From the NCBI GenBank assembly GCA_014730295.1, contig WJIN01000293.1, positions 1 to 15,595 on the forward strand: a stretch of 15,595 nucleotides of DNA. The letters are read 5' to 3'. Shown piece after piece: positions 1,516 through 15,392 of the stretch. The position numbers and the translations under genes are program-made. The notes beneath the pieces were generated by a model, which did no database searches, was not told the DNA's origin, and saw only the letters and a program-made list of their open reading frames with translations. Within the stretch, counting starts at the first letter, position 1; each line of letters starts with the position of its first letter. This stretch comes from Promethearchaeota archaeon (lineage in GTDB: Archaea > Asgardarchaeota > Lokiarchaeia > Sigynarchaeales > SOKP01).

Positions 1516-1547
1516 TATCAACATTAATTGGTATCAACATTAATTGG
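1516..1547 (+). repeat. Perfect 16-bp tandem duplication over the start of the first array gene
   Basis: The unit TATCAACATTAATTGG occurs twice head to tail, at 1516-1531 and 1532-1547. The second copy supplies the TTG (1544) that opens the first membrane/winged-helix gene and ends one base into the alternative GTG start (1547). Sixteen is not a multiple of three, so the two TTGs lie in different frames. A change in copy number would move the leader and possibly a regulatory site but would leave the reading frame intact. No function is known. Confidence 0.85.
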
Positions 1548-2266
1548 TGATATATATTAAAAAGTCGCTGGTATTCATTAAAATAATTTATTCTATAATG
1601 GTCATATTTCTATTAGCAGACAGAAATTACTATTTTTTAGATGTTGATATAATTATTGATAGTGGTGGAGGTCCATATCAAGCTGATAAAAGCTTTCATG
1701 GATATAATGCATTTTTTGCTGGTTGTTTATTCGAGATTTTATTATTTATTCTTTCAATAATATTAATTCATTTTTGGTACCTTCGCTTCGGAATAATAGT
1801 TGGATTAGCCGGAATTTTTTTCCATCTATTTAATTATCTCTATGCTTATATTTATGTATTAATAAATGTGATGGATAATCTTGGTGGATCTCTTATATAT
1901 TTAAATATTAATTTATTTGATACTTATACGGTATTATTTATTATTATTATTTTTAATAATGCTTTATTAATTATTTTGAAGTTTAGGGAACGATTTTATG
2001 ATCCAAAGAAAGTTCGAAAGGTAATTCTTGATTTTGGAACGAAATTTCCACGAATAAAAGTAAAAGAGATATTAGAAGAGTGTGGTACGAGTTTTAATTT
2101 TATTATTAAAGAAATAAATAAAATGATAGAAGAAGAACAAATCTATGCTGATTATTTTAGAACTTCTAAAAGTGTTGTATTCAACCAGCAAGCTAATATT
2201 GAAGAAATTGATTATTTGATGCAAATGTATAATCAATGGGAATCAGATAAGTCAATTAAAAAATAA
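1544..2266 (+). CDS. Array member 1: multi-pass membrane protein with cytosolic PCI-like winged helix
   Basis: Unrecognised family, 240 residues, first of a same-strand array of paralogues. Hydrophobic stretches at about residues 8-25, 57-78, 82-108 and 126-146 suggest four membrane helices. A charged linker (FRERFYDPKKVRK) leads to a soluble C-terminal domain, about 155-232. That domain has the family signature: LDFGTKFPR, a helix-turn-helix (VKEILEECG), a recognition-type helix, EEQIYADYF, then VVFNQQANIEEIDYLM and a final QW. The helix/helix/wing layout resembles the winged helix that closes PCI domains and DDRGK1. The start is TTG 1544 or GTG 1547; both lie at the end of a 16-bp duplication and neither has a strong ribosome-binding site. 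A role as a membrane-anchored adaptor or regulator is inference. Confidence 0.82.
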   Translation: MVIYIKKSLVFIKIIYSIMVIFLLADRNYYFLDVDIIIDSGGGPYQADKSFHGYNAFFAGCLFEILLFILSIILIHFWYLRFGIIVGLAGIFFHLFNYLYAYIYVLINVMDNLGGSLIYLNINLFDTYTVLFIIIIFNNALLIILKFRERFYDPKKVRKVILDFGTKFPRIKVKEILEECGTSFNFIIKEINKMIEEEQIYADYFRTSKSVVFNQQANIEEIDYLMQMYNQWESDKSIKK

Positions 2267-2321
2267 TTTAAAAAAATTTGAGTTATAAGTTTAAACATAT
2301 AAAAATAAAAAACATTGAAAA

Positions 2322-3005
2322 ATGAAGCAGAAGATATTTATTTTACTGAAATTAATCCTACTAGCGAGTTTAATAGAAACAACATTCGATACTTTCCTTG
2401 CACCCTTCCTTTTCAACTTTATCCCAAATAACTTACCTTACGTTTTAGTTTTACCTTATGGAATTATTGAATTATGTTGCCTTATTATGATTTTAATATC
2501 TCTTATCTTTTTTCAATATCTCAAAATTTATCCTGGTATCATAATAGGTTTGTTCGCCTCCTTTGTGTATATCGTATTCGTGATTCCCATTGATTTTATG
2601 TTCATAAATTTAATGAATAATTCTATTAAAACAATTTTTTTGATTTATTCCATTCTTTTTCCATTCCAAACTACAATATTAATCTTTATAGTAAATAACT
2701 TAATGCTTAGATATAAAATCAATGAGCAAAATATAGATATTGGGAGAATTAAAAAAAATGTCATCGATTTGGGTACAAAATTTACGAGATTGACTTTAGG
2801 AGATGTTAGTGAGAAATGTAAAGAAAATAAAGATATTATATTAAAGGTTATAACTGAGATGATTGAAAATAATGAAGTCTATGCAAAATATTTTAAAAGT
2901 ACTCAGATGATAGCGTTTGATCAACAAGCAAATCTAAATGAAATTGATGAATTATTAAACCAGTTTAATGAATGGGAAAAAAATCAACAACTAAAAAAAG
3001 TATAA
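2322..3005 (+). CDS. Array member 2: four-helix membrane protein with PCI-like winged helix (type A)
   Basis: Paralogue of 227 residues with an ATG start, MKQKIF, which is shared with members 4 and 8 and supports this start. Hydrophobic segments lie at about 4-30, 44-66, 71-98 and 104-127. The cytosolic domain runs from about 140 to 220, with LGTKFTRLTLGDVSEKC, a helix ending EMIENNEVYAKYF, then the highly conserved KSTQMIAFDQQANLNEIDEL and NEWEKNQQLKKV. Its winged-helix core is nearly identical to that of member 4, and its 3' end plus the next leader are copied almost exactly behind member 5. This points to block duplication. It lies 55 bases after member 1 and 27 before member 3, so co-transcription is likely. 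Function unknown. Confidence 0.85.
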   Translation: MKQKIFILLKLILLASLIETTFDTFLAPFLFNFIPNNLPYVLVLPYGIIELCCLIMILISLIFFQYLKIYPGIIIGLFASFVYIVFVIPIDFMFINLMNNSIKTIFLIYSILFPFQTTILIFIVNNLMLRYKINEQNIDIGRIKKNVIDLGTKFTRLTLGDVSEKCKENKDIILKVITEMIENNEVYAKYFKSTQMIAFDQQANLNEIDELLNQFNEWEKNQQLKKV

Positions 3006-3040
3006 TTTTAACTCCAATTAGATGAAGAATTTATGAAATT
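3001..3040 (+). repeat. 40-bp direct repeat, copy 1 (gene end, intergenic leader and next start)
   Basis: These 40 bases cover the stop region of member 2, the 27-bp intergenic gap and the ATG of member 3. They recur base for base at 5212-5251 between member 5 and the member 6 pseudogene. Flanking coding sequence is similar but not identical. The repeat shows that a type A / type B gene junction was duplicated as a unit, or that the leader is kept by selection or conversion. Confidence 0.9.
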
Positions 3041-3710
3041 ACAAATACCCGCATTAGTTATAACAGAAAAACTATCTTTAATAAGAGTTACTTATATTGT
3101 TTCTTTAATTGCAATATATATATCCTATTTTTATCCGAACATTTCATTAATAACCATAGATAATGATTATTTTCCAGTATTTATTCCTACAACATACTTT
3201 TTACCCTCGCTAATTTTAGGTTTATTATTTTTTATAGTTTCATTATATTTCTTATTCAAATTGCCAATTAGGTATACCATCATTTCAGGTTTAGTTGGTA
3301 TATTTATACACAGCACGAATTATATTTATTTCTTTATAAATTATAATATAAACAAAACTCAGTTTGGTAATTCTGGGTTTGTATTCAACATTTGGGCTTA
3401 TGTCTCTTTGGTTGCTTACATCATAACAATTTTCTTAATTTCTCTTCTCTATCGAGAATTCTATGTAAGTAAAAATAAAGATAAATCCCCAATCAAGAAG
3501 AAGGTTTTAGAATTAGGAATCATGTATCCTAGGCTTGAAATAAGAGAGATTTCAGAAAAATGTAATGGATTTCCAGATGTAGTCATCAATATCGTAAAAG
3601 AAATGATCGATAATGGGGAAATATATGCGGAATATTTTAAAAATTCCAAATCAATAACATTCAATAAGTTAGCAAATATTAATGAAATGGATGGATTATC
3701 CGAATCTTAA
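3033..3710 (+). CDS. Array member 3: four-helix membrane protein with winged helix (type B)
   Basis: Paralogue of 225 residues. Its N-terminus has an extra amphipathic stretch (MKLQIPALVITEKLSLI) before the first hydrophobic segment at about 20-34. Further segments lie at about 55-75, 80-103 and 120-140. The cytosolic domain starts at about 153, with VLELGIMYPRLEIREISEKC, EMIDNGEIYAEYF, then NSKSITFNKLANINEMDG. It stops at LSES, so it lacks the LM..(Y/F)..WE end found in most members. The K-L in place of Q-Q in the FNQQAN motif is also a type B feature. The ATG start is supported by the same leader and N-terminus in the member 6 pseudogene. Function unknown; a membrane adaptor is one possibility. 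Confidence 0.83.
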   Translation: MKLQIPALVITEKLSLIRVTYIVSLIAIYISYFYPNISLITIDNDYFPVFIPTTYFLPSLILGLLFFIVSLYFLFKLPIRYTIISGLVGIFIHSTNYIYFFINYNINKTQFGNSGFVFNIWAYVSLVAYIITIFLISLLYREFYVSKNKDKSPIKKKVLELGIMYPRLEIREISEKCNGFPDVVINIVKEMIDNGEIYAEYFKNSKSITFNKLANINEMDGLSES

Positions 3711-3858
3711 GATTAAAAAAATTATAACGTTAAATCTTTTATGAATCTTATAAATTTAGAGGATTAGAAGTGCTATGAATATAGGTTTATAATAAAATTG
3801 TAATATAATTAAATCCAATAAAAATGAAACAAAAAACCTTTTTAAACTTTAAATTGAT

Positions 3859-3870
3859 TTTGTTTGTTTG
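3859..3870 (+). repeat. (TTTG)3 tetranucleotide repeat at the frameshift of array member 4
   Basis: Three perfect TTTG units sit where the N-terminal frame, from ATG 3824 (MKQKTFLNFKLILFV then TGA at 3869), breaks from the long downstream frame. Adding one TTTG unit would join the two frames into LILFVCLIGFAFDTTLAP. This aligns without a gap to LILLASLIETTFDTFLAP of member 2. Loss of one unit is therefore the simplest explanation of the frameshift. Confidence 0.8.
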
Positions 3871-4521
3871 ATTGGTTTTGCTTTTGATACGACACTAGCT
3901 CCAATGGTAAATGGTTTTATACCTCGAGAGCCAAATTTAATTCAACCTTATGTTTATGGAAGGATAAAATATATTTTTCTTCTCTTTCATTTAATTTCGA
4001 TTATAGCAATTCAATATTTGAATTTATATTTAGGAATATTATTTGGTTTTATCGCAACTTTAATCTATGTTTTTGGTATTTTATGGGTTGATATCTATAT
4101 TATATATCTCCTTAATCGACCGTATTTATATAAACTTTCAATATATATAATAATCATTCCTACTCCACTTTTTATACTCAATATAAATTCTCTTTTATTG
4201 CTAATTTTGTTTAAATTGAATAATGAAGACTCTGATATTGTCAATATTAAAAGAACTATCATCGATTTAGGTACAAAATTTACGAGATTGACCTTAGGAG
4301 ATGTTAACGAGAAATGTAAAGAAAGTAAAGATATTGTATTAAAGGTTATTAATCAGATGATTGGAGATAATGAAATCTATGCAAAATATTTTAAAAGCAC
4401 TCAAATGATTGCTTTTGATCAACAGGCAAATATTGATGATATTGATAATTTAATGAAAACCTACCAAGAATGGGAAAAATATGAGGTTGAGAGAAGATAT
4501 AATTTTGGACTCAAGGTTTAA
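3868..4521 (+). CDS. Array member 4: membrane protein with PCI-like winged helix, 5' end frameshifted
   Basis: The long open frame covers 217 residues with hydrophobic segments at about 33-50, 53-80 and 88-115. The type A winged-helix domain runs from about 125 to 203 (LGTKFTRLTLGDVNEKC, AKYFKSTQMIAFDQQANIDDID, EWE), with a longer tail ending YNFGLKV. The natural start is probably ATG 3824, because its peptide MKQKTFLNFKLIL matches the MKQKIFILLKLIL start of member 2. That frame stops at TGA 3869 inside a (TTTG)3 run, so as sequenced the first membrane segment is cut off. The TTG at 3868 could in principle start a shortened protein, but no ribosome-binding site supports it. It may be a recent pseudogene, an ON/OFF contingency gene, or an assembly error. 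The body shows no other damage. Confidence 0.7.
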   Translation: MIGFAFDTTLAPMVNGFIPREPNLIQPYVYGRIKYIFLLFHLISIIAIQYLNLYLGILFGFIATLIYVFGILWVDIYIIYLLNRPYLYKLSIYIIIIPTPLFILNINSLLLLILFKLNNEDSDIVNIKRTIIDLGTKFTRLTLGDVNEKCKESKDIVLKVINQMIGDNEIYAKYFKSTQMIAFDQQANIDDIDNLMKTYQEWEKYEVERRYNFGLKV

Positions 4522-4535
4522 AATAAGAAAAAAAA

Positions 4536-4545
4536 GGGAGAGGAG
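4536..4545 (+). promoter_or_regulatory. Shine-Dalgarno-like site for array member 5
   Basis: GGGAGAGGAG ends eight bases before the TTG at 4554. It is the clearest purine-rich ribosome-binding site in the array and supports the TTG as the true start of member 5. Confidence 0.55.
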
Positions 4546-4553
4546 ATAAAAAA

Positions 4554-5216
4554 TTGAGACAACAATATTTTATGATTTCAAAAATTAGTTTAGGTGGATT
4601 GACTACTTTGATTTTTATCTTCTTTTTATTTCTGTTTATGGATATAGGTAACTTAATCATAGCACTTCCAATTAAATTGACAAATTATTCTATAGGATTA
4701 TGTGCTATTGGGATTTTGATTCTCTCAATAGTATTCCTTCAATCCCATCGTATGAAATCGGGAATTCTTATTGGTATATTTGCTGATATCATTCTCGGGT
4801 ATTTTTTTATTATTACGCTATATTTCTATTTTATTAGTCAAAGAGGATTTTTTTATTTCATTCCTTCAATAATGAGTTTATTATGGTTGTTTAATACTTC
4901 GATATATTTTATTTTGTTTTTTAGTAAATTGAAGGAGAACGAAAGCAACACTACAAAAATCAAAAGGACTGTAATAGATTTGGGTACAAAATATACTAGA
5001 TTAAGTTTAGGAGATATTAGCGAGAAATGTGGAGAAAACACAGCTATCGTTTTAGAGACGATAAAGGATATGATTAAAAATAGTGAAATTAATGCGAAAT
5101 ATTTTAGATCCTCAAGAATGGTTGCGTTTGATCAACAAGCTAACATTGACGATTTTGATAAATTAATGAAATCTTTTGAGGAATGGGAAAATGATCAACA
5201 ACTTAAAAAATTATAA
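4554..5216 (+). CDS. Array member 5: four-helix membrane protein with PCI-like winged helix (type A)
   Basis: Paralogue of 220 residues. A TTG start is chosen because it is preceded by a purine-rich ribosome-binding site and because the peptide begins MRQQYFMISK, like the MKQ starts of its relatives. Hydrophobic segments lie at about 11-38, 46-63, 69-94 and 99-123. The C-terminal domain, about 134-212, has IDLGTKYTRLSLGDISEKCGE, DMIKNSEINAKYF, then RSSRMVAFDQQANIDDFDKLM, EEWENDQQLKKL. The end of the gene and the following 27-bp gap match those of member 2. No defect is seen. Function unknown. Confidence 0.85.
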   Translation: MRQQYFMISKISLGGLTTLIFIFFLFLFMDIGNLIIALPIKLTNYSIGLCAIGILILSIVFLQSHRMKSGILIGIFADIILGYFFIITLYFYFISQRGFFYFIPSIMSLLWLFNTSIYFILFFSKLKENESNTTKIKRTVIDLGTKYTRLSLGDISEKCGENTAIVLETIKDMIKNSEINAKYFRSSRMVAFDQQANIDDFDKLMKSFEEWENDQQLKKL

Positions 5217-5251
5217 TTTTAACTCCAATTAGATGAAGAATTTATGAAATT
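5212..5251 (+). repeat. 40-bp direct repeat, copy 2
   Basis: Identical to 3001-3040. It spans the end of member 5, the intergenic gap and the ATG at 5244 of the degraded member 6. It fixes the original start of that pseudogene. Confidence 0.9.
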
Positions 5252-5934
5252 TAAAATAACAAAATTAGCTACAACCGAAAAGCTGTCTCTAATCAGGATT
5301 GCTTATATTAATTACTCAATAGCTATATATATCCTTTGTTTATCCGGTTGTATCAGTAGTTGATAATAATAATGGGGATATATATCCAATTTTTATTTAT
5401 AGATACTTTCTTTTTACCCTCGATAATTTTAGGGTTGCTATTTTATCTTGGTTCATTATATTACTTCTTTAATTTACCAATTAGATATACCATCATTTCA
5501 GGTTTAGTTGGTGTCTTTATACACCGCACGAATTATGTTTACTTATTTATAAATTATAATATAAACAAAACTCAGTTTGGTAATTCTGGGTTTGAATTCA
5601 ACATTTGGGCTTATGTCTCTTTGGTTGCTTACATCATAACAATTTTCTTAATTTCTCTTCTCTATCGAGAATTCAATGAAAGTAAAAAAAAGATAAATCC
5701 TCAATCAAGAAGACGGTTTTAGAATTGGGAATCATGTATCCTAAGCTTGAAATAAGAGAGATTTCAGAAAAATGTAATGAGTTTCCCGATGTGGTTATCA
5801 ATGTCGTAAAAGAAATGATCGATAATGGGGAAATATACGCAGAATACTTTAAAAACTCTAAATCAATAGCATTCAATAAGCTAGCAAATATTAATGAAAT
5901 GGATGGATTATTGGAATCGTACAGAGTATCCTGA
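5244..5934 (+). pseudogene. Array member 6: decayed copy of member 3 with three indels
   Basis: Compared with member 3 the gene is collinear but broken three times. From ATG 5244 it reads MKFKITKLATTEKLSLIRI and stops at 5361. A two-base loss in the TA run near 5322-5331 moves the homologous peptide (IYISFVYPVVSVVDNNNGD) to another frame. A one-base gain near 5395-5415 starts the long middle piece (FFLPSIILGLLF, membrane segments 2-4), which stops at 5722. A one-base loss in the A run at about 5684-5691 (eight A where member 3 has nine bases) shifts the winged-helix part (LELGIMYPKLEIREISEKC) to the frame that ends at 5934. Conservation outside the indels is high, and 5546-5674 differs from member 3 by one base in 129, so decay or sequencing error is recent. 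Confidence 0.85.
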
Positions 5935-6092
5935 TAAAAAAATGATTAAATGAATGAGATTATGAATTTTGAAAATGCAAAATAATTTAAAAAAATGAAC
6001 ATATCTAAAAATTACTAGAAATTAGATTAACCAGTTATTGTATACCATAATTTTTAATTAATAGAATAAAATTTTAAAGAAAAAATTATTAG

Positions 6093-6818
6093 GTGATCGA
6101 AATTATAAATCGAGTTCTTATAATTAAATCCCTTTATTTTATTAATTTAATAATAATGATATTAACATTACCATATTTTAATCTTATAGTAATTTATGAG
6201 ACCCCTTTGGGGGAATCCTCGATTGCTTTTTTTGGTTATGAAATATATCTCGTATTTGGAGTTATTGAAATAATATTGTTGTTAATATCTCTGATCTTAT
6301 TCGATAGTTCACGATCTCGTTCTGGAATGATTATTGGTGGGACCGGTATAATATTACGGATTATTAATTATATTTACATGAGTTATTTTATATTATTTGG
6401 ATGGCGAAATAATATCAATGAAAACGAGATTATTCGGACTATATCCATCTTAATAGGTTACCCTTTATATATCTCCATTTTCTCGTTTATTCTTATATTT
6501 AGTTCATTAATAGGTTTATTTAAACTCGAGTTTAAACAAAGCAAAGTAGACTGGTTCCATGTCAAAAAATCAATTTTTGAATTAAGTACAAGATTTCCAC
6601 GTCTAAAAATTAAAGAAATTTCGGAAGAAACAAATCAAAATCAAGATCTAATTATAAAAATTGTTAAGAATATGATTGAATCTAATGAAATTCAAGCCGA
6701 ATATTTTAGTAGTACTAAGACTGTCGCTTTTGATCAACAATCTCACTTTGATAAGATTGATGATCTACTTGATGATTATACAGATAAAGAAAAAAACAAT
6801 ATATACAAGAAAGATTAG
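6093..6818 (+). CDS. Array member 7: multi-pass membrane protein with PCI-like winged helix
   Basis: Divergent paralogue of 241 residues with a GTG start. Hydrophobic segments lie at about 9-35, 50-70, 78-103 and 117-143. A loop (DSSRSRSG) between segments 2 and 3 carries positive charge. The soluble domain, about 155-228, has IFELSTRFPRLKIKEISEET, NMIESNEIQAEYF, SSTKTVAFDQQSHFDKIDDLL. It lacks the usual cysteine after the first helix (EET for EKC) and the final WE. A 158-bp AT-rich gap before it may hold its own promoter. Function unknown, as for the rest of the family. Confidence 0.83.
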   Translation: MIEIINRVLIIKSLYFINLIIMILTLPYFNLIVIYETPLGESSIAFFGYEIYLVFGVIEIILLLISLILFDSSRSRSGMIIGGTGIILRIINYIYMSYFILFGWRNNINENEIIRTISILIGYPLYISIFSFILIFSSLIGLFKLEFKQSKVDWFHVKKSIFELSTRFPRLKIKEISEETNQNQDLIIKIVKNMIESNEIQAEYFSSTKTVAFDQQSHFDKIDDLLDDYTDKEKNNIYKKD

Positions 6819-6926
6819 AATTATATATATGATTAGTAGAAAGAAACTATTTTTTGAAAAATTTAAATGAAAATGATATCTAAAAAAATATAAATTAAAC
6901 ATATACAAAAAAAACCAAAAGAAACT

Positions 6927-7568
6927 ATGAAACAAGAAAGACTATTTATAATTAAGTTATCTCTGATAATCAATTGGTTTATTCTTTTTTATATGATTCC
7001 GAATACATTTTTTAGCTTAGGTAATGGTTTTTTTTCCTCCTTATATAACCTTATTGGACTTCTACTATTTGGTATTTCAATTATTTTAATTCATACTGCA
7101 AAGAATTTCACATTTATTATTCCTCTGGGGATTATTAGTACTATAATTTTTATTTCTACAGTTTTTCACGGATTAATTGTCTTTCTTCCTTCTGCTCCCC
7201 TTGACATTATTATTCATAATAATTATTATATTAAAATTCCAACTACATTAATACCTATAACTGCAATGATAATAGTATATTCTTTTCTAATAGCACTAAA
7301 ATTCAACGAAAAAAATATCGATCTTCTTGAAGTAAGAAAATGTATACTTGAACTTGGAACTAAATTTACACGTTTATCAATTGAAGAGATTAGTGAGGTG
7401 ACAGGTCTAGATAGATATAACATTGAAAATCTAGTTGTGGAGATGGTTAAAAATAAGGACATTTATGCGAAATATTTCAAAAGTACTAAGATGGTAGCTT
7501 TTGACCAGCAATCAAACATCGAGGAGATTCATCACTTAATGCAAATATACGATGATTGGGGAGATTAA
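6927..7568 (+). CDS. Array member 8: multi-pass membrane protein with PCI-like winged helix
   Basis: Paralogue of 213 residues with an ATG start and an MKQE N-terminus like members 2 and 4. Hydrophobic segments lie at about 7-30, 37-56, 62-89 and 105-125. The C-terminal domain, about 132-212, is the one that most resembles a PCI-terminal winged helix: LGTKFTRLSIEEISEVTGL, then DRYNIENLVVEMVKNKDIYAK in two parts, then STKMVAFDQQSNIEEIHHLM and DDWGD. In PCI proteins this pattern mediates protein-protein contacts and subunit assembly; that such contacts are made here is inference. AT-rich gaps of 108 bp before and 171 bp after suggest single-gene transcription. Confidence 0.85.
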   Translation: MKQERLFIIKLSLIINWFILFYMIPNTFFSLGNGFFSSLYNLIGLLLFGISIILIHTAKNFTFIIPLGIISTIIFISTVFHGLIVFLPSAPLDIIIHNNYYIKIPTTLIPITAMIIVYSFLIALKFNEKNIDLLEVRKCILELGTKFTRLSIEEISEVTGLDRYNIENLVVEMVKNKDIYAKYFKSTKMVAFDQQSNIEEIHHLMQIYDDWGD

Positions 7569-7739
7569 ATAAATTATTTATCATTATTTATTTTAAAAAA
7601 TCACATAAAGCATAATTCTTATATAAATATGCTAAAAATATTATACTAAAAAGAGAATAATTTAACATAAGATTGAAAATCTCTATTATAAAATTCTTAA
7701 GAACGATGATCAAAAAATAACAACTTTACAGGATACTTT

Positions 7740-8405
7740 ATGATTAAATCATTGCGTTATTTGAAAATAATAAATATCATATCTACAATTCTTTTTTACA
7801 TATTTTCACCAGCAGGAGTTATCTATTTAGAATATAATCAACCATATTATAATTATGAAATATTCAATGCGGAGCTCTCATACATAAGTATTATTACCTT
7901 TTTTGTTTCAATTTTTCTTCTTCATAAATTTTTCATTAATTATAGTATATTAACTGGATTAATTGGAATTTTAATTCATTTTTGGTGTATATTTTCTTTT
8001 TTAGTTCCTATAATTTTGATATCACCAATTAATGATATTAAGTTTGGTATTGGATTCTATTTACACCTAGTATCAATTCTTCCAATTATAACTTCAATAA
8101 TATTTTTAATGATTTTAAAACTAAAACAAAGTGAAAAAAATAGAGTTTTAATAAAAAGAACAATTCTTGAATTGGGGACAAAATATCCTCGTATAGAAAT
8201 GAAAGAAATCGCAGAAAAATGTGGTGAACTTCCAGATCTTATAATTGATGTTTTACAAAAAATGATCAAAAACGAGGAAATATATGCTGCTTATTTCAAA
8301 ACTTCACAAACTGTTGCATTCAATCAACAAGCAAATATAAATGAAATTGATCTTCTTATGGAAAGATATAATGACTGGGAAACTACTAGACTCAAAAAAA
8401 AATAG
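7740..8405 (+). CDS. Array member 9: multi-pass membrane protein with PCI-like winged helix
   Basis: Last full-length paralogue, 221 residues with an ATG start. Hydrophobic segments lie at about 8-30, 48-64, 69-97 and 104-127. The soluble domain, about 136-215, has ILELGTKYPRIEMKEIAEKCG, KMIKNEEIYAAYF, KTSQTVAFNQQANINEIDLLM and NDWE, with a lysine-rich end. TATA-like TTATATAAAT at 7619-7628 and TATTATAAAAT near 7684-7694 lie in the 171-bp gap upstream; either could drive this gene, but neither is proven. A degraded relative lies just downstream. Function unknown. Confidence 0.85.
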   Translation: MIKSLRYLKIINIISTILFYIFSPAGVIYLEYNQPYYNYEIFNAELSYISIITFFVSIFLLHKFFINYSILTGLIGILIHFWCIFSFLVPIILISPINDIKFGIGFYLHLVSILPIITSIIFLMILKLKQSEKNRVLIKRTILELGTKYPRIEMKEIAEKCGELPDLIIDVLQKMIKNEEIYAAYFKTSQTVAFNQQANINEIDLLMERYNDWETTRLKKK

Positions 8406-8466: not shown

Positions 8467-8590
8467 TGTTTCCACCAATGTGGTTAATATCAGAGAAATA
8501 GATAAGTTAATGAAAAAATTAAAAGAGTGGGAAGTTCAAAAAATTAAAAAAACACATAATAATGAGAAGTTGTGCGGATTAAAAATTTAG
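8467..8590 (+). pseudogene. Array member 10: C-terminal remnant of the same family
   Basis: Reading from about 8483, the frame gives NIREIDKLMKKLKEWEVQKI and a few lysines. This is the family tail (ANI.EIDKLM...EWE..Q.LKK). No membrane part or winged helix precedes it, and the upstream 60 bases are non-coding in this frame. It ends at TAG 8588, a few bases into the 3' end of the convergent SPFH gene. It marks the array border and shows that at least one more copy was lost. Confidence 0.75.
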
Positions 8591-9715
8591 AAGCTTTTCT
8601 TCCAATTCATTAATCTCTTTTTCTATTCTTCTCACTCTCAAACTATAAGTTTCTTCTGAGATTTTACCTGATGATAATAACTCATCAAATTGATTGAGTT
8701 TTTGTTTTAACTTCAAAATTCTATTCTCTATTCGCTTCTTATTTTTCAAAGGGTGATTCGTTTGAAATTCAGCGATCTTAACCTCTTTTTCTGATTCTAG
8801 TTTCATTTTAGCCAGATCCCCGGCAACTGAGGCTTTTCCTTGCTGTTCAATTATTTCTGATTTAGTTAGACCTTCTAATTTATCTCTTTCCGATAAGTAT
8901 GTCATTTTATCACGTTCTTTTTTTGCTTCTAATATTTCTTGTTCTCGTTCGAAACTCTTTTTAGCTGCTTTCAATTCTCTTTTTTTAGTCTCAAGGTCCT
9001 TTTTTAATTTGAGTATTTTAATCTCTTCTGAGATTTTTGATTTCTGTTTATCTGTTTCATACAATGAATCAACACCCTCAGGTACTTGAATTCCTAACAA
9101 ATTCAATGATTCGAACTCCATCCCATATTTTAAAAAATCTTCCATAATTTTGGAGTTAACCACATTTAATACACGTTCTCGATCTTCTAAAAGAATTTGT
9201 TTGGCAGTATAATTTTTAAATGTGTCTCTTAAAACGGTTTGTAATAAGGAGAGAATCCAATTCTTAACATCATCTAATGACCAAATCTTCCGTCCTGCAA
9301 TAACATCGGTATAGAATGTTTTCACATCGTTAACTCTAAATTTCATTGTCCCATGCAAGCCGACGATAATCCCATCCTTAGAGGGTATCCCATTTGATAG
9401 TGGGATACCCCACTTTATCTCATTTATGGAAGTATCCACCCAAACAATTTCTGTTCCCTTGGTTTTTGTCTTTTTATTGAGTTCATATATTCCCCCTTCT
9501 AAAATCCCTATTAGTTCTCCCTTATCATAGAATAATGCTCTTTCATAATCTTTGACTGCGAAATATTTCTTTTTTTTAAAATCGTCTCCTGGTTGAGGAT
9601 AAATATACAAAATAGACGTTTTTGTCCCTTCATCCACTCTATGCCAAGCTAAGATTTTAGGATTAATATCTTTAAATCCTTTTTCATCAATTTTTTTATA
9701 CATATTAAATCCCAT
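8579..9715 (-). CDS. SPFH/stomatin-prohibitin-like protein with long coiled coil
   Basis: 378 residues. The SPFH (band 7) domain covers about 45-215: an opening strand region (KKYFAVKDYERALFYDKGELIG), GGIYELN, GLHGTMKFRVNDVKTFYTDV, and IMEDFLKYGMEFESLNLLGIQVPEGV in two parts, the usual 'cytosolic side' ending of the fold. This type resembles the soluble YdjI/COG4260 group rather than anchored stomatins, since no N-terminal membrane helix or signal is present. A charged, lysine- and glutamate-rich coiled coil fills about 220-315. The last 50 residues form a helical hairpin with FDELLSSGKISEETY, like a SHOCT module. SPFH proteins form oligomeric rings or membrane-microdomain scaffolds. It follows the winged-helix gene by 39 bp on the same strand, so they probably share a transcript. 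The start could also be the second Met (residue 5). Confidence 0.82.
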   Translation of the reverse strand: MGFNMYKKIDEKGFKDINPKILAWHRVDEGTKTSILYIYPQPGDDFKKKKYFAVKDYERALFYDKGELIGILEGGIYELNKKTKTKGTEIVWVDTSINEIKWGIPLSNGIPSKDGIIVGLHGTMKFRVNDVKTFYTDVIAGRKIWSLDDVKNWILSLLQTVLRDTFKNYTAKQILLEDRERVLNVVNSKIMEDFLKYGMEFESLNLLGIQVPEGVDSLYETDKQKSKISEEIKILKLKKDLETKKRELKAAKKSFEREQEILEAKKERDKMTYLSERDKLEGLTKSEIIEQQGKASVAGDLAKMKLESEKEVKIAEFQTNHPLKNKKRIENRILKLKQKLNQFDELLSSGKISEETYSLRVRRIEKEINELEEKLLNF

Positions 9716-9754: not shown

Positions 9755-11146
9755 TTAGTAATTACCTTCTGAAATTATATACCATTTATCTCCGTGGAGA
9801 AAAGATTTTGAATGCTTAATAATACCAATAGTTTCCAAATTCTTCAAAATATTAGTACACTTTTCTTTTTTCCAATCAAGTGCGTTAATTATATCTGCAA
9901 GAGTAAATTTTTGAAGAATTAAAGCAACACTTATTAGTTTGTTCTCATCTTCTGAAATATCATGAGCTTTTAGTTGTAATAGTTTAAAATATCGATTTTG
10001 ATCAGTTCTTACTTCTCTAATTCCAGGGATTAAGCCATCATCGGTCATTCTATTGATTACTGTTTCAAGTTCTTCTATTGTGAATATTAAATTCGGATTT
10101 TGGTCTAAAAGAAATTGATAGAATTCATATAAAGGAATTGTATCCTTTATCTTGTATATGTGATTATTAAAATCTGAAGATGAGTTATTTAGAGCATTTA
10201 AAGATTCCAAAATAGCTTCTTTGATGCTATCTCTCTTTATATCTTGTGAATCTTGTTTATTGATAATCTTATTAATTAATTCCGTCTCTAACTTATTATC
10301 CATGATTTTCTTCAAGTCGTCATCATTAAATAAATGTAAATCTGGATTGATTTTTACTCTTTTCATAACTAAGTCTGTTAATAATCTCAATTCTTCTCGG
10401 GCATCCTTTGTAAAAGAGAGAGCATGAACATTTGCTTCATTTTCCAAATATAGAGAAATCTTCTCTGACAAACTAATGTAGCCATTTATATCATTTAAGA
10501 TTATGAAATTTAAAAATAATATTTCTGAGAACGTAATTTTTGCTTCTTTTTCTGTAATTTTTCTTTTAGGTTCTCCAGCTTTTTTCAATTTAAGTTTTTT
10601 TATTGGATCTTCAGGAGCATTTACAAATATATGTCTAAGATACTTAACCCGTTTTAATATAAAACTAATTAAATCCTCAAAGATTGGATCATCAAGATTA
10701 ATAACAGTTCCAAGAATTTTACTCATTTCCAACTGTAAGGATTTGAACTTCTCTTCTATGCTGTCATTTTTACCCTTAATAGATCTTTTTAACTCATCTA
10801 TTTCGTTTGGAATTGCGATCTCATTAAGTAGCTCTTGTTCTTTGGTAATTAAATTCGATTGGATTTCTCTATTTCCATTTGCTTTTTTAATAACCTTCTT
10901 TCCGAATCTTGTAATTTTCCATTTTGGAAGTATATTGTTTTTTTCTACGACTCTTTCAACTTGATTGAATTTTTCTAATTGTAATAAAATATTTTTAGTA
11001 ACTCTCATTGAGAGATCGGTATTTTTACTTATGTTTCTAATACTTGCCAATTTATCTCCTCGATCCCTCAAGTATCTAAGAACAATAGCAATACCTTGAA
11101 GACTAATTGGTAGGTTACGAGATGTGTTTTTTTTTGAATTCGTCAT
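9755..11146 (-). CDS. Multi-winged-helix protein with EAP30/Vps36-like C-terminus
   Basis: 463 residues, no membrane segment. Residues about 15-90 form a classic winged helix (LASIRNISKNTDLSMRVTKN, then WKITRFGKKVIKK). The middle, 100-330, is helical and charged. The last 130 residues fit a tandem winged helix: IPLYEFYQFLL, FTIEELETVINRMTDDGLIP, YFKLLQLKAHDISEDE, then FTLADIINALDWKKEKCTN, ILKNLETIGIIKHSK, DKWYI. The order resembles the end of ESCRT-II Vps22/Vps36 (a 'spedl' helix, then the 'vmviql.sh.eee' segment, then a second winged helix). Asgard archaea encode ESCRT-II proteins. UFL1, the UFM1 E3, is also built of winged helices, so an E3 or adaptor role is an alternative. A DNA-binding regulator of the divergent conjugation operon is the third. 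I cannot decide between them. Confidence 0.8.
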   Translation of the reverse strand: MTNSKKNTSRNLPISLQGIAIVLRYLRDRGDKLASIRNISKNTDLSMRVTKNILLQLEKFNQVERVVEKNNILPKWKITRFGKKVIKKANGNREIQSNLITKEQELLNEIAIPNEIDELKRSIKGKNDSIEEKFKSLQLEMSKILGTVINLDDPIFEDLISFILKRVKYLRHIFVNAPEDPIKKLKLKKAGEPKRKITEKEAKITFSEILFLNFIILNDINGYISLSEKISLYLENEANVHALSFTKDAREELRLLTDLVMKRVKINPDLHLFNDDDLKKIMDNKLETELINKIINKQDSQDIKRDSIKEAILESLNALNNSSSDFNNHIYKIKDTIPLYEFYQFLLDQNPNLIFTIEELETVINRMTDDGLIPGIREVRTDQNRYFKLLQLKAHDISEDENKLISVALILQKFTLADIINALDWKKEKCTNILKNLETIGIIKHSKSFLHGDKWYIISEGNY

Positions 11147-11337: not shown

Positions 11338-12420
11338 GTGATTAAATACAAACTTGTACCTCAACTTAGGGAAAACTGTATAATTAAAGGCAAAAAAGAG
11401 TGGCTCTCAGAATATTCACCTGGAGATGTCATTTTCATAATTTCAACTTCTGCTATTAAAAAATTCTCAATAATATCAAAAATTGAAAATATTAAGGAAT
11501 CGGATAATGCGATAATCTATATTGATAAAAGAATTATGGGAGAATTTGCTGAGAAAGATAATGTTCAAATTATCAAGTACAATCCAGCAGAAGCAATTAA
11601 TATACAAATTACAATATCAGACTCCTTTTCTATAATATCTAAAGGTGATTGGACGGCAAACATAAAACCCTCAATTAAAAATAAGATAGTAGATATTGGA
11701 CAAGAAATCTCATTTTTAATCAATTGGGAAGGCGGCGTTCCGATAGTGGCTTCAGGTATTGTAGATTATACCTTACCTAGTCCTCCAGTTTTCATCGGAG
11801 ATAGGACTCAAATATTTTTGCAAAAAGCTTCTCATGATGATTTAGTAAGAACTTTGGATAGCACAATAATTATTAAGAAAAGGCGTGTAAATATTCTGGA
11901 AAACCAATTAAAAGAGAAAAAGTTCCATATTTTTAGACAGATGAAGGAGAGCAACTATCCATATAAAGGACTAAGATTTAAATATAAAGCAACTAACTCC
12001 CATCAATTATTTAACTCTATTATAAATATATTCAAGCGTTTAGATATCATTGAAGAACCTTCTGAGGAAATATTTGATAAATCGAATCAAGATTATTTAG
12101 GTTCCGCTGTATATCTTTTAAAAAAAAAAGATAATTCCTTCTTGTTGATTGATCTACAAATTGTAGCCTCTTCTAATTCTGGAACAATTCTTCTCTGGAT
12201 AACCGGAAAAAATATGAACTCCATTTCAGAATCTTTAGATATATACTCAAATCGCATCACTGAATTAATAAAAAGCGTTGAGCAAAAAGCAGAAGTAATT
12301 GGTGCTAAATGTCCCGAATGCGGAGGAGATCTTCCATTAAATGAAATGAATGTAGAAGGAATCGTTGAATGTCAGTTTTGCTCCAAAATATCAAAAATAC
12401 CGAAAGCATTAAGATACTAA
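11338..12420 (+). CDS. Beta-barrel protein with C-terminal zinc ribbon, first gene of the UFM1-like locus
   Basis: 360 residues with a GTG start; a TGA overlaps the nearby ATG, so GTG 11338 is the first possible start. I do not recognise the family. Residues about 25-162 are strand-rich, with IIYIDKRIMGEFAEKDNVQI and, later, PSPPVFIGDRTQIFL. This spacing recalls the double-psi barrel plus second barrel of the Cdc48/p97 N-domain, which binds substrates and adaptors; the likeness is weak and inferred. Residues 165-205 are a charged helix, and 210-320 a mixed alpha/beta region. The end is a zinc ribbon with C325/C328 (CPECGG) and C345/C348 (CQFC). It ends two bases before the E1 start, so translation is probably coupled. 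A substrate receptor or scaffold for the modification system is a plausible role, not shown. Confidence 0.8.
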   Translation: MIKYKLVPQLRENCIIKGKKEWLSEYSPGDVIFIISTSAIKKFSIISKIENIKESDNAIIYIDKRIMGEFAEKDNVQIIKYNPAEAINIQITISDSFSIISKGDWTANIKPSIKNKIVDIGQEISFLINWEGGVPIVASGIVDYTLPSPPVFIGDRTQIFLQKASHDDLVRTLDSTIIIKKRRVNILENQLKEKKFHIFRQMKESNYPYKGLRFKYKATNSHQLFNSIINIFKRLDIIEEPSEEIFDKSNQDYLGSAVYLLKKKDNSFLLIDLQIVASSNSGTILLWITGKNMNSISESLDIYSNRITELIKSVEQKAEVIGAKCPECGGDLPLNEMNVEGIVECQFCSKISKIPKALRY

Positions 12421-12422
12421 CA

Positions 12423-13271
12423 ATGAAAGAAGAGAAAAATAATAATAGATATACGAGATTAAAAGCAATTAAAGAATTTGGGTATAATATTGAATGGGAT
12501 GATTTAAAAACATATCATGTTGGTATAATTGGAGTTGGAGGATTGGGTACAGTTTCATCAGAAATGGCAGTTCGATGCGGTATAGGAGAATTAACTCTAA
12601 TTGATTTTGACACAGTTGATATAGTGAACTTAAATAGACTAATGTTTCGGGAAGAACATATTGGAAAATCAAAAGTTAAAGTGGTAAATGAGATTTTAAA
12701 AAAAATAAATAATGATGTTAAAATAAACTATTTTCAACAAGACATAATGGATATTGAATTTGAAAGTAAATTTATTACAGAAATTAGAAAAATGGATATA
12801 ATTTTAAATGGATTAGATAATATTCCTGCCAGAGAATATTTGAATGCTAAATGTGTCCATAATGAGATAACTTATATTGATTCTGGAGCCTCAAGAAGTG
12901 GTCTTTCTGGATATGTACACCCTATTATTCCAAATAAAACAGCATGCGCACAATGTTTAAGTAGTATTGGATTAGATTTACCAAATGAAAGAGGAGAACC
13001 TTGTGTAGCCTCACTACCTTCCACACTAGCTATATTAGCAAGTGTTCAGATACAGGAAATGTTGAAGATCTTACTTAATTTCGGAAAGACTATTGACTAT
13101 CTGATGTATGATATGATTCAAGGTAAATTTCTTAGTTATAAAACCAAAAGGGACCCAAAATGTTCCATCTGCGGTGATAAATCATATAAAACTAAATCTA
13201 GATTTGGAACTCAAATTTCAAAGAAAGATTTAGATCAATTTATAGATAAAACTAAAAAAGAATCTGATTAA
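12423..13271 (+). CDS. UBA5-like E1 activating enzyme
   Basis: 282 residues from ATG 12423, two bases after the previous stop; an earlier in-frame TTG-type start (12369) would overlap that gene and is rejected. It adenylates the C-terminal Gly of the modifier and passes it to a cysteine. The architecture is the short UBA5 type. NRYTRLKAIKEFG precedes the Rossmann fold (UBA5: NPYSRLMALKRMG). The ATP loop is GVGGLG (37-42), then EMAVRCGIGELTLIDFD, NLNR (69-72), and LDN (131-133) with R137. Zinc pairs are C175/C178 and C247/C250. The catalytic Cys is C194 in EPCVASLPST, where UBA5 Cys250 lies in VCAASLPTT, and MLKILLNFG matches UBA5 VLKFLLNFG. There is no Ub-fold domain or second catalytic Cys domain as in UBA1. 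The long acidic UBA5 tail with its LIR/UFM1-interacting motif is missing; a short helix (KKDLDQFIDKTKK) ends the protein. Confidence 0.9.
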   Translation: MKEEKNNNRYTRLKAIKEFGYNIEWDDLKTYHVGIIGVGGLGTVSSEMAVRCGIGELTLIDFDTVDIVNLNRLMFREEHIGKSKVKVVNEILKKINNDVKINYFQQDIMDIEFESKFITEIRKMDIILNGLDNIPAREYLNAKCVHNEITYIDSGASRSGLSGYVHPIIPNKTACAQCLSSIGLDLPNERGEPCVASLPSTLAILASVQIQEMLKILLNFGKTIDYLMYDMIQGKFLSYKTKRDPKCSICGDKSYKTKSRFGTQISKKDLDQFIDKTKKESD

Positions 13272-13272
13272 A

Positions 13273-14484
13273 ATGAAATCATTTATAATTCCCGAGGAAT
13301 TCTTTGATTTAATCAGACACCAAGCTCTTAATTCAGAGGAGGAAATATATGGATGGTTAATTGGATATTTACATGAAAAATATCCAAGAGTATTGGCTCT
13401 ATTTGAATGTCAAAAATTCCAACACCAATCTATAATAAACGCCATTCCTGATGTAAGAGAATTTTATGAAATCAGCTCAATCTTACCGCAAGGAATTGGA
13501 GCAATAGGTATTTATCATTCTCATCCCCATGGTTCTAAAGTTTTTCATAGTCATACCGATGATTCAACCTTATTAAGCTTAAGTAATCAATTTCCAAATT
13601 GTATCTCCGTAGTCACTAATGGAAATGAGGTTGAATGTTTTATCATCGATGAGGATCAGAAAACAAAGAAAATAGATTATACTCTAAAGAGCACTAAACC
13701 CCCTTCCTTTATAATTATATCATTAGAATTGAATTTGAAACTTTTAATAGATAAGGAAATAATAAAGAACAATTTAGACGGCATTTATATTAAAATATCA
13801 GATGAAATCAGAGATTATTTAGAATTAGTTTGGGAAGATTTCGAATTTTATTACCAGGATGAAAAATTGGAAGAAACCATACCCCTCAAGACAATTTTAA
13901 AAGATGAATTAAATTCAAAACCTATTAAAATGAGATTATCAGATGATATTAGACCAAACAGTAATAACACTATGATTTCAATTAGCCCCAATGAGAAAGT
14001 AAATGAATCTGAAATGAAACGAGATCAATTTGTAGTCTTTCAATCCGAAATCGATGTTAAAGTACCGATTTATATTAGTTCACCTTATAATACTCTTTCT
14101 GATCTGACTTTAACTATTAAAACCGAGTTAATTAGCAATAATATTCTAAATCGAATTATAAAAGCTTCCTTAGATTTTGGAAATAAAGTCTTATGGGTCC
14201 CTAATGTCTATCATCTTTGGTTTTTTGGCTTTTACATATCGCTTCTTACGTTTAATGATAAAGAATTAAACAAGACAACTTTATCTGAATTAAATTATAA
14301 AATAATAACTAGACTGATTTCACTAATTACGTCTCTGAGTAAAATATCATTATCGGAAAACTTGGTTCATTTACTTAGTGAAACTATTAGAAATATTAAA
14401 AGTTTTTCACTAGATTTCCATTGGAAAAATAAAATAGCAAAGAAAATTAGGAACTGCGAAAAATCATTAACTAAGATAATTTAA
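13273..14484 (+). CDS. JAMM/MPN metalloprotease with long C-terminal extension
   Basis: 403 residues, ATG start one base after the E1 stop. The N-terminal 140 residues are a JAB/MPN+ domain: E24 in EEEIYGWLIGY, H82 and H84 in YHSHPHG, then S93 and D96 in HSHTDD. These are the zinc ligands and catalytic residues of isopeptidases such as Rpn11 and AMSH. The spacing is HxH-x8-S-x2-D, one residue longer than the common x7, and the loop carries extra histidines (H86, H92, H94). The other 260 residues match nothing I know: a low-complexity charged middle (220-255) and a helical C-terminus (about 290-403) with no clear membrane helix. The modifier is encoded with its C-terminal Gly exposed, so this enzyme is better explained as a deconjugase than a maturation protease. 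In eukaryotes UFM1 is processed by cysteine proteases (UFSP1/2), so the catalytic class differs. Confidence 0.87.
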   Translation: MKSFIIPEEFFDLIRHQALNSEEEIYGWLIGYLHEKYPRVLALFECQKFQHQSIINAIPDVREFYEISSILPQGIGAIGIYHSHPHGSKVFHSHTDDSTLLSLSNQFPNCISVVTNGNEVECFIIDEDQKTKKIDYTLKSTKPPSFIIISLELNLKLLIDKEIIKNNLDGIYIKISDEIRDYLELVWEDFEFYYQDEKLEETIPLKTILKDELNSKPIKMRLSDDIRPNSNNTMISISPNEKVNESEMKRDQFVVFQSEIDVKVPIYISSPYNTLSDLTLTIKTELISNNILNRIIKASLDFGNKVLWVPNVYHLWFFGFYISLLTFNDKELNKTTLSELNYKIITRLISLITSLSKISLSENLVHLLSETIRNIKSFSLDFHWKNKIAKKIRNCEKSLTKII

Positions 14485-14510
14485 TATATGAGCTACAACA
14501 AAAAATTAAA

Positions 14511-14522
14511 AAATATAAATTT
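14511..14522 (+). promoter_or_regulatory. TATA-like element upstream of the modifier gene
   Basis: AAATATAAATTT lies 58 bases before the modifier ATG in a 96-bp gap, the only sizeable gap inside the conjugation locus. It would let the modifier and E2 be transcribed apart from the E1 genes, as suits a modifier needed in excess. The region is AT-rich, so the match is weak. Confidence 0.35.
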
Positions 14523-14564
14523 AATATAATAATAAGGAAACATTAACAAAACTCAAAATAAAAA

Positions 14565-14568
14565 GGAG
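14565..14568 (+). promoter_or_regulatory. Ribosome-binding site of the modifier gene
   Basis: GGAG, within AAAAGGAGTAG, lies 12 bases before ATG 14581 and supports this start. Confidence 0.5.
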
Positions 14569-14580
14569 TAGATAACCCAC

Positions 14581-14847
14581 ATGTCTTCTGAATTAAATAC
14601 AATTTATTTTGTTAATAAGTTTGGATCGGAAAAAAAGCAAATCCCTTTCCCTGTATCTCCTAATTTAAAACTAATGGATGTGATTCCCGAAATATCAAAA
14701 AAGTTTGGGATTTCTTCTCAGAACATCTGTATAGCTAATATGGGGGGACAGGTTTTAACTTCTAGTGATTTAATGAAGCCAATTGGCGAATTGGTAGAAA
14801 TTTTTGGAAAATCATATGACATTATTGATCGAGGTATTGTAGGGTGA
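14581..14847 (+). CDS. UFM1-like ubiquitin-fold modifier ending in a single Gly
   Basis: 88 residues, a small beta-grasp protein. Strand TIYFVNK, second strand QIPFPVS, helix LMDVIPEISKKFG, strand NICIANMGG, and end FGKSYDIIDRGIVG give the ubiquitin fold in order. The best match by eye is UFM1: helix AVLKFAAEEFKV then AIITNDG and HGSELRIIPRDRVG align with helix, IANMGG and end with only a few gaps. It terminates in Val-Gly. UFM1 is conjugated through a single Gly83 preceded by Val, unlike Gly-Gly in ubiquitin, SUMO, SAMP and URM1. Here no residues follow the Gly, so the gene encodes the mature form; human UFM1 carries two extra residues that must be cut off. It overlaps the E2 gene by four bases. 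Target proteins are unknown; it would be joined to lysines in the cytosol or at membranes. Confidence 0.82.
   Translation: MSSELNTIYFVNKFGSEKKQIPFPVSPNLKLMDVIPEISKKFGISSQNICIANMGGQVLTSSDLMKPIGELVEIFGKSYDIIDRGIVG
14831..14835 (+). promoter_or_regulatory. Ribosome-binding site for the E2 inside the modifier gene
   Basis: GAGGT lies in the last codons of the modifier (Arg-Gly region), eight bases before the GTG at 14844. It supports GTG as the E2 start and, with the GTGA overlap, translational coupling. Confidence 0.5.
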
Positions 14848-15392
14848 ATGAGAAATCAGCAAGATGGCAGCGGTCTATTATTGATGAAATAATCCAAGAA
14901 TTTCCACAAAAATGGATTGAAGTTAATCCAAAACATCACGCTTGGAAGGATCGTATAAAGATTGAAATAGAGAAAATATTGAAGTATATAAATTTTTTGA
15001 GACGTACTCAAACACGTCCATGGTTTAAACTATTTCCTGATAAAAATCCAAGATATAATTATTTGGTGTGGTCTGGAAATTTAATTATTCCCGAAAAACC
15101 GGAAATAAATTTTGAAATAAAGGTATTATTAACATCAGAATACCCAAAAGTCTGTCCAAGATGTTTTGCTGAAGAAAAGATCCTCAATTTTTGCGGAAAA
15201 ATTTTTATAAAAAACATTTGGGAACAAAATAATAAGAAATATGTAATGATCTGTCATGAGCACATGGCAAATACCGAAGCTTGGAACGAACGACTTGGAA
15301 TAGCGCATTTTTTTATTAGACAAATTTGGGTTTGGTGGGCAGCTCAACAAAATATTATCATTAATGAGTTTGATAAAAAAAAAAATCTATAA
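14844..15392 (+). CDS. UFC1-like E2 conjugating enzyme
   Basis: 182 residues from GTG 14844. It accepts the modifier from the E1 on a cysteine and transfers it to lysine. After an N-terminal helical extension (1-55), the UFC1 order is visible: helix AWKDRIKIEIEKILKYI (UFC1 LWVQRLKEEYQSLIRYV), PWFKLFPDKN (UFC1 DWFRLESNKE), strand WSGNLIIP, INFEIKVLLTSEYP (UFC1 FDIEFDIPITYP), then C137 in YVMICHEHM and W147, GIAHFF (UFC1 KICLTDH, LW, GLAHLM), and a Trp-rich last helix. C137 is the likely catalytic residue, equal to UFC1 Cys116. The HPN motif of ubiquitin E2s is absent, as in UFC1, and the UFC1 TAK triplet is also not seen. Between YP and C137 there are about 12 extra residues and a CPRC pair (C104/C107) plus C117, which may bind zinc. 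Confidence 0.85.
   Translation: MNEKSARWQRSIIDEIIQEFPQKWIEVNPKHHAWKDRIKIEIEKILKYINFLRRTQTRPWFKLFPDKNPRYNYLVWSGNLIIPEKPEINFEIKVLLTSEYPKVCPRCFAEEKILNFCGKIFIKNIWEQNNKKYVMICHEHMANTEAWNERLGIAHFFIRQIWVWWAAQQNIIINEFDKKKNL

Follow-up and report, generated by a model that had tools for sequence, protein, structure and literature searches.

Does the gene cluster at positions 11338-15392 of a 15,595-nucleotide stretch from a Promethearchaeota archaeon (contig WJIN01000293.1; the whole stretch is called the window here) encode a UFM1-type protein conjugation system, and what might such a system do in an archaeon? A sequence-only reading had picked out three neighbouring genes with UFMylation-type motifs, for an E1, an E2 and a modifier, and had proposed that they form a prokaryotic, probably Asgard, version or ancestor of UFMylation in operon form. 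The motifs of all three proteins are present as described and exceed what chance would give. However, the interval actually contains five genes: a JAMM protease (13273-14484) and a Cdc48-N-like protein (11338-12420) had been passed over, as had the EAP30-like and SPFH genes next to them.

We consider it very probable that the cluster combines a UBA5-type E1 and a UFC1-type E2 with a modifier predicted to have the UFM1 fold, and that the modifier is conjugated to proteins. The two enzyme classes are well supported by independent sequence tests with controls. For the modifier, a confident predicted structure is joined by weaker sequence support. We strongly infer, from the components present and the residues conserved in them, that the three proteins together carry out conjugation. 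The cluster is compact and lies on the plus strand, with short gene joints (2 bases, 1 base, 96 bases and then an overlap, in which the GTG start of the E2 shares 4 bases with the stop of the modifier). Its genes and predicted key residues, in order and with lengths in amino acids (aa), are:

11338-12420, plus strand: 360-aa Cdc48-N-like/zinc-ribbon protein, a likely reader or adaptor
12423-13271, plus strand: UBA5-type E1, 282 aa from the ATG at 12423 (profile and reverse searches)
13002-13004, plus strand: codon of the predicted catalytic Cys194 of the E1, in GEPCVASLPST (invariant, n=17; aligned with the human UBA5 motif)
13273-14484, plus strand: JAMM/JAB metalloprotease, 403 aa (Pfam Prok-JAB, 3.7e-8)
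13516-13560, plus strand: JAMM motif HSHP...SHTD (sequence; motif conservation in loci)
14581-14847, plus strand: UFM1-type modifier, 88 aa, with a Val-Gly end (AlphaFold2 structure, UFM1 ranked first)
14842-14844, plus strand: codon of the C-terminal Gly88 of the modifier (Val-Gly conservation)
14844-15392, plus strand: UFC1-type E2, 182 aa, GTG start (Pfam, PDB, profile and hhalign comparisons)
15252-15254, plus strand: codon of the predicted catalytic Cys137 of the E2, in MICHEH (conservation; aligned with the cysteine of human UFC1 ICLTDH)

The predicted activating and conjugating enzymes

The E1 carries the GEPCVASLPSTLAIL catalytic context and LLNFG, and the family alignment makes the ATG at 12423 a more likely start than the longest-frame start at 12369. 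Pfam assigns the protein to ThiF only (3.2e-52). In comparisons with the PDB, the single sequence matched UBA5 at 4.8e-49 and MoeB at 5.8e-27, and a family profile of 17 relatives scored 254 bits with UBA5, 138 with MoeB, 113 with ThiF, 111 with UBA1 and 51 with bacterial BubCD. The strongest single result is the reverse search. Human UBA5 found some match in 221 of 227 Asgard genomes; the top 17 places (148.7 to 187 bits) were taken by operon E1s only, and the next score below them was 107 bits, leaving a clear gap. One further operon E1, shortened by a contig end (G161:C205), reached 91 bits. The placement with MoeB or ThiF that the sequence-only reading had named as speaking against it did not occur, and UBA1 likewise scored below UBA5. 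All 17 aligned E1 rows keep two CxxC pairs and the cysteine of GEPCVASLPS(T), and the Cys194 motif aligns with its counterpart in human UBA5. By eye, the C-terminal tail resembles what we take to be the UFC1-binding end of UBA5. The likeness to UBA5 is already present in annotation pipelines, because JGI gives the name 'ubiquitin-like modifier-activating enzyme 5' to 9 among 120 listed relatives of the E1.

By sequence, the E1 class can be regarded as established to be UBA5, while its branching order stays open. In a tree of 44 rows, from which the second E1 of genome G001 (contig C77, locus L001) was left out, human UBA5 was the sole eukaryotic sequence, on a long branch, and fell into a group (support 100/97) that also contains the operon E1s plus seven further Asgard ThiF proteins. 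Joining UBA5 to the operon E1s (p 0.335) or to those seven ThiF proteins (0.26) was not rejected by the approximately-unbiased test; UBA5 with bacteria (0.075) and UBA5 with the remaining seven Asgard ThiF proteins (0.074) were both near rejection. Because this tree does not fix human UBA5 as the sister of the operon E1s, 'ancestor' in the earlier proposal is no more than a possibility. The other part of that proposal, a prokaryotic, probably Asgard, form of UFMylation organized as an operon, is supported by the class tests and by the Asgard relatives. A bacterial origin of UBA5 was considered and rejected, the best score in 199 genomes of a single bacterial phylum being 91 bits.

The E2 contains RPWFKL and MICHEHM..AW..RLGIAHFF. 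Its match to Pfam UFC1 (PF08694; 9.2e-5, 22.6 bits) is just below the cut-off of 25, and 18 of 39 E2 hits bear a precomputed PF08694 label. UFC1 chains were found in the PDB at 0.0023, and no E2 family other than UFC1 matched significantly in Pfam or the PDB. When a profile of 19 relatives was used instead, 26 UFC1 sequences led the PDB matches (4e-7), followed by the uncharacterized 3nym (0.073) and UBE2L3 (0.57). Alignment of the family with human UFC1 by hhalign gave 92.5% and 4.8e-7, compared with 32.9% and 4.6e-4 for the control UBE2D2, and its columns put the MIC-HEH cysteine on the ICLTDH cysteine of human UFC1 and GIAHF on GLAHL. Canonical E2s, again the outcome that would have counted against a UFC1 assignment, scored beneath UFC1 in both comparisons and were rejected as nearest kin. 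We read 23 loci: the window plus 22 others (L001, L002 and L029-L048), which lie in 19 genomes. The catalytic-position cysteine is kept in 20 of their 21 E2 proteins and is Ser in L040. In three loci (L037, 9700-10010; L038, 17000-17220; L039, 9260-9620, the locus on a 3.3-Mb contig) the E2 frame has no good ATG or GTG before its conserved N-terminus. By eye, a GGGGGT or GGAGGT stretch is followed there by ATT, at which the E2 may initiate.

The modifier and its proposed protease

The modifier ends in ...DIIDRGIVG and a stop, with a single Gly as had been noted. Sequence searches weigh against calling it UFM1: no UFM1 match came up in the PDB or Pfam, whether with phmmer or with profiles, and Pfam Ufm1 (PF03671) matched neither the window modifier nor any of the 227 Asgard genomes. 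For this reason the protein is named UFM1-type and not a member of Pfam Ufm1, and structure prediction was needed. The AlphaFold2 model had a predicted local distance difference test (pLDDT) score of 89.9, and UFM1 structures ranked first in a structure search with it, which assigns a UFM1 fold by prediction. The best UFM1 chain was 3.4 Z units above archaeal ubiquitin. Template-modelling (TM) scores were 0.71-0.83 for UFM1 chains and 0.59 for the bacterial ubiquitin-like protein 8tyx_A, although the Foldseek E-value of the latter (rank 10) was close to those of the UFM1 chains. UFM1 also came ahead of ubiquitin and the other controls in profile comparison, more weakly than in fold. Ubiquitin and MoaD were therefore rejected as nearest kin by control scores beneath UFM1, and a grouping with ubiquitin or another beta-grasp family, the third result that might have overturned the proposal, turned out the other way by predicted fold and, with less force, by profile.

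The Val-Gly end is present in all 41 aligned modifier rows, in 20 of 21 modifier proteins of the loci and in all 62 database hits that extend beyond residue 70 (the window's own included), 47 of which stop exactly there. Outside the operon, the modifier profile also matches within open frames of 345-616 aa in genomes G095, G096, G097 and G099.

Modifier and E2 are fused in one frame in 12 of 39 E2 hits, with Val-Gly at the joint in 11 and Ala-Gly in P0038, and with a variable linker after the joint glycine. Six of the loci read bear such fusions (L033, L035, L036, L041, L045 and L047). A fused modifier needs a protease to free its end, and the operon encodes a JAMM protease, which from these fusions is likely to be the processing enzyme. 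The HxH..SxxD motif is complete in all 19 JAB/JAMM proteins of the loci, including that of the window. In eukaryotes, the end of UFM1 is freed by the C78 cysteine protease UFSP; the C78 profile (PF07910) matched none of 195 genomes, and the control genomes likewise gave no match.

In the mechanism that we propose, the E1 would activate the modifier by ATP-driven adenylation at its C-terminal Gly88 and then hold it as a thioester on Cys194. From there the modifier would move to Cys137 of the E2 and, lastly, onto lysines of the targets. The part that UFSP plays in eukaryotes would fall to the JAMM protease: by cleaving after the last glycine it would free fused or tailed modifiers and would also strip the modifier from targets, while the 360-aa Cdc48-N-like protein would act as a reader or adaptor.

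Distribution, partner genes and rival explanations

A single-sequence search found the E2 in 18 of the 227 Asgard-phylum genomes, one case being a remnant (G157). The modifier profile matched in 31, with some weak matches and some domains of larger frames. The window, L001, L002 and database hits served as seeds of the search models and so match by construction. In the loci read, which were selected via their E1 or E2, E1, JAMM protease, modifier and E2 occur together in 17 of 23, several of the missing genes being at contig ends (L002, L043 and L048). The partners found with them are the Cdc48-N-like gene (18 loci), the SPFH gene (15) and the 460-aa winged-helix gene (11). The close relatives bearing names are Asgard, and include Lokiarchaeota, 'Odinarchaeota', Promethearchaeota, Heimdallarchaeum endolithica and Heimdallarchaeum aukensis; Thorarchaeota and Hermodarchaeota have an E1 match alone. 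In one set of four relative loci, two (from Euryarchaeota and Clostridia assemblies) are partial, distant ThiF matches with 33-36% identity.

The N-terminal domain of the 360-aa protein has a predicted fold like that of the N domain of Cdc48/p97, to which ubiquitin-fold UBX domains bind in eukaryotes. It is followed by a beta-rich middle part (about 205-315) and a C-terminal zinc ribbon, and the protein is likely a reader or adaptor. Upstream of the cluster and divergent from it are two genes that form part of the conserved neighbourhood in the loci read:

8579-9715, minus strand: SPFH/Band 7 protein, 378 aa (Pfam Band_7, 6e-15)
9755-11146, minus strand: winged-helix protein, 463 aa, whose C-terminal pair of tandem winged helices resembles EAP30 (ESCRT-II Vps22/Vps36) (profile comparison)

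The family of the winged-helix protein (A6, 10 rows) and the family that adjoins the SPFH gene in other loci (A10, five rows) matched each other at 2.1e-10 over 117 columns. Pfam EAP30 matches were found in four of the five A10 members (1.7e-9 to 8.3e-6, two above the cut-off) and not in the window protein itself. These SPFH and EAP30-like neighbours suggest that the targets are at a membrane. In eukaryotes, the classic target of UFMylation is the ribosomal protein RPL26/uL24. The 9755-11146 protein was also tried as UFL1 and rejected, with no Pfam UFL1 or DDRGK match and a best PDB profile match of 0.47, which is not significant.

The operon has no UFL1 or DDRGK1 gene; UFL1-like genes are encoded elsewhere in the genomes. 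UFL1 profile matches occur in 95 of the 227 genomes, many without this E2, and in 14 of the 18 that have it, nine of these under 1e-10 (Fisher p 0.002, with kinship ignored). In many E2-bearing genomes a UFMylation-type ligase may therefore be available, though unlinked to the operon. In Asgard UFL1-like frames of about 800 aa (e.g. G001:C77:105863-106750), a DDRGK winged-helix match lies just ahead of the UFL1 match, so that a single protein may comprise both the ligase and the DDRGK1-like part, with the reservation that the DDRGK profile also matched one control genome. In G001 and G097, such a frame is on the contig of the operon, about 40-46 kb off.

Farther upstream in the window (1544-8405) are nine tandem open reading frames (ORFs) with a common C-terminal winged helix that matches Pfam PCI (best 1.6e-6 among four scanned). 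Their N-terminal parts look hydrophobic by eye, and one copy (5360-5934) is apparently split into ORFs 5360-5722 and 5725-5934. In L001, this tail is on leucine-rich-repeat and tetratricopeptide-repeat (TPR) proteins, within and beside the operon. The tail profile matched in 32 of 227 genomes, operon-less ones included, and the tandem proteins could be modular receptors. As DDRGK1 the tails were rejected and are kept as a lead only (best PDB profile match eIF3c, 0.025, and occurrence in genomes without the operon). The window opens with the C-terminal part of a DEAD/DEAH-type helicase (3-1337), cut by the window start; its match to TIGR03817 (72-1334, 1.5e-96) is under the cut-off of that model.

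Two rivals survive best, and we regard both as unlikely. In the first, the cluster is an immune, anti-virus version of the system, in which viral or self proteins are tagged in connection with NAD-cleaving effectors. The patchy distribution of the E2 fits this, as do two fusions: in L002 (3247-4860) a TIR domain (Pfam TIR_2, 3.3e-14) is joined to the Cdc48-N-like/zinc-ribbon protein, and in L040 (17231-19924) an 897-aa frame carries a SIR2-like domain, TPRs, an E2 in which Ser replaces the Cys, and a modifier domain that lacks Val-Gly. The latter frame, with its reversed E2-then-modifier order, is a dead or repurposed relative. However, effector fusions were noticed in only 2 of 23 loci, not all genes of which were scanned, and PADLOC returned for seven window proteins only ThiF-type E1 hits and two marginal E2 hits (7.5e-4 to an E1-E2 model and 0.003 to TniQ). 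This rival concerns the role and not the chemistry, and is compatible with UFM1-type conjugation.

The second, of about the same small probability, is that the genes came from eukaryotes by transfer or assembly contamination and are uninformative on the origin of UFMylation. Patchy spread and the open direction of the E1 tree would agree with this, as would an earlier survey, PMC10183829 (EMBO J 2023), which found the pathway complete, and UFM1, C53, UFC1 and UFSP2 at all, in eukaryotes only. That paper also describes UFL1/DDRGK1-like E3 proteins in Asgard archaea. Against a eukaryotic source are the arrangement as an operon whose genes overlap or nearly touch, the divergence of modifier members down to 26% identity, one locus on a contig of 3,326,783 bases (G010), and the presence in the cluster of a JAMM protease and other regular partners.

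It is very improbable that the cluster is a general prokaryotic ubiquitin-like operon (Bil/Bub or Caldiarchaeum type) with a superficial likeness to UFMylation. UBA5 leads the second-ranked E1 class, MoeB, by 116 bits, with BubCD far below; no second E2 family joins UFC1; the predicted modifier fold prefers UFM1 by the Z margin over archaeal ubiquitin; and the modifier ends in Val-Gly instead of Gly-Gly. A MoeB/ThiF-type sulfur-carrier pair for cofactor or tRNA thiolation without protein tagging is hardly credible: the E1 belongs to the ThiF superfamily, the modifier ends in glycine and the best NCBIfam match of the E1 is MoeB (123.9 bits, below the cut-off of 266; a UBA5 model is absent among the 24 families listed), but the same operon has a UFC1-type E2 with a near-invariant cysteine plus a JAMM protease, and MoeB is far behind UBA5 in the PDB comparison.

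UFM1-type conjugation thus remains our explanation of the cluster, and an Asgard operon with UBA5-, UFC1- and UFM1-type proteins alters the eukaryote-only picture of the UFMylation core. We can well imagine, without yet calling it probable, that the entire UFM1 conjugation core, beyond the ligase, was present in Asgard archaea as an operon before eukaryotes, and that its partners reveal an ancestral membrane tagging for Cdc48-/ESCRT-like handling, the source of the role bound to the endoplasmic reticulum. The system is small and expressible, which makes the origin and first function of UFMylation testable in archaea, and the partner genes are leads to a possible ancestral role at a membrane.

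Comparison with known systems

None of the papers among the matches listed reports such an Asgard operon in its title or the start of its abstract, preprints being outside the scope of that search. PMC11354881 describes UBA5-like domains in archaea and bacteria, and PMC9192718 uses an 'Asgard archaeal UFM1' as outgroup for ESCRT-II winged-helix proteins; judging from its context, this name presumably means the UFM1 ligase UFL1.

The Caldiarchaeum system uses true ubiquitin with Gly-Gly, a UBC-type E2 and a RING E3. According to PMC5654768 and PMC6043591, it is an archaeal operon of E1, E2, modifier and JAMM (Rpn11) protease, and in this it resembles the window operon. However, it is of the ubiquitin/UBC/RING type, whereas the window operon is of the UBA5/UFC1/UFM1 type.

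The gene content also resembles that of bacterial Bil/Bub systems, in which E1, E2, JAB protease and modifier form an operon; 8tyx, 8tyz and 9ea5 in our structure and profile results are presumably entries of this type. The difference lies in the E1, whose profile scores 51 bits with BubCD and 254 with UBA5.

Eukaryotic UFMylation shares with the archaeal set a UBA5-type E1 whose cysteine sits within C(V/A)ASLP and which also has paired cysteines, a UFC1-type E2 with IC..H..W..G(I/L)AH, and a predicted UFM1 fold with a Val-Gly end. In contrast to the eukaryotic system, the archaeal set is one operon, with a JAMM protease where eukaryotes use UFSP, and the sequence of its modifier is too distant for Pfam Ufm1. 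The archaeal E2 has additional residues ahead of the cysteine compared with human UFC1, and in the E1 the second of the cysteine pairs reads CxxC where human UBA5 has CxxxxC. The Cdc48-N-like, EAP30-like and SPFH partners belong to the archaeal side of this comparison.

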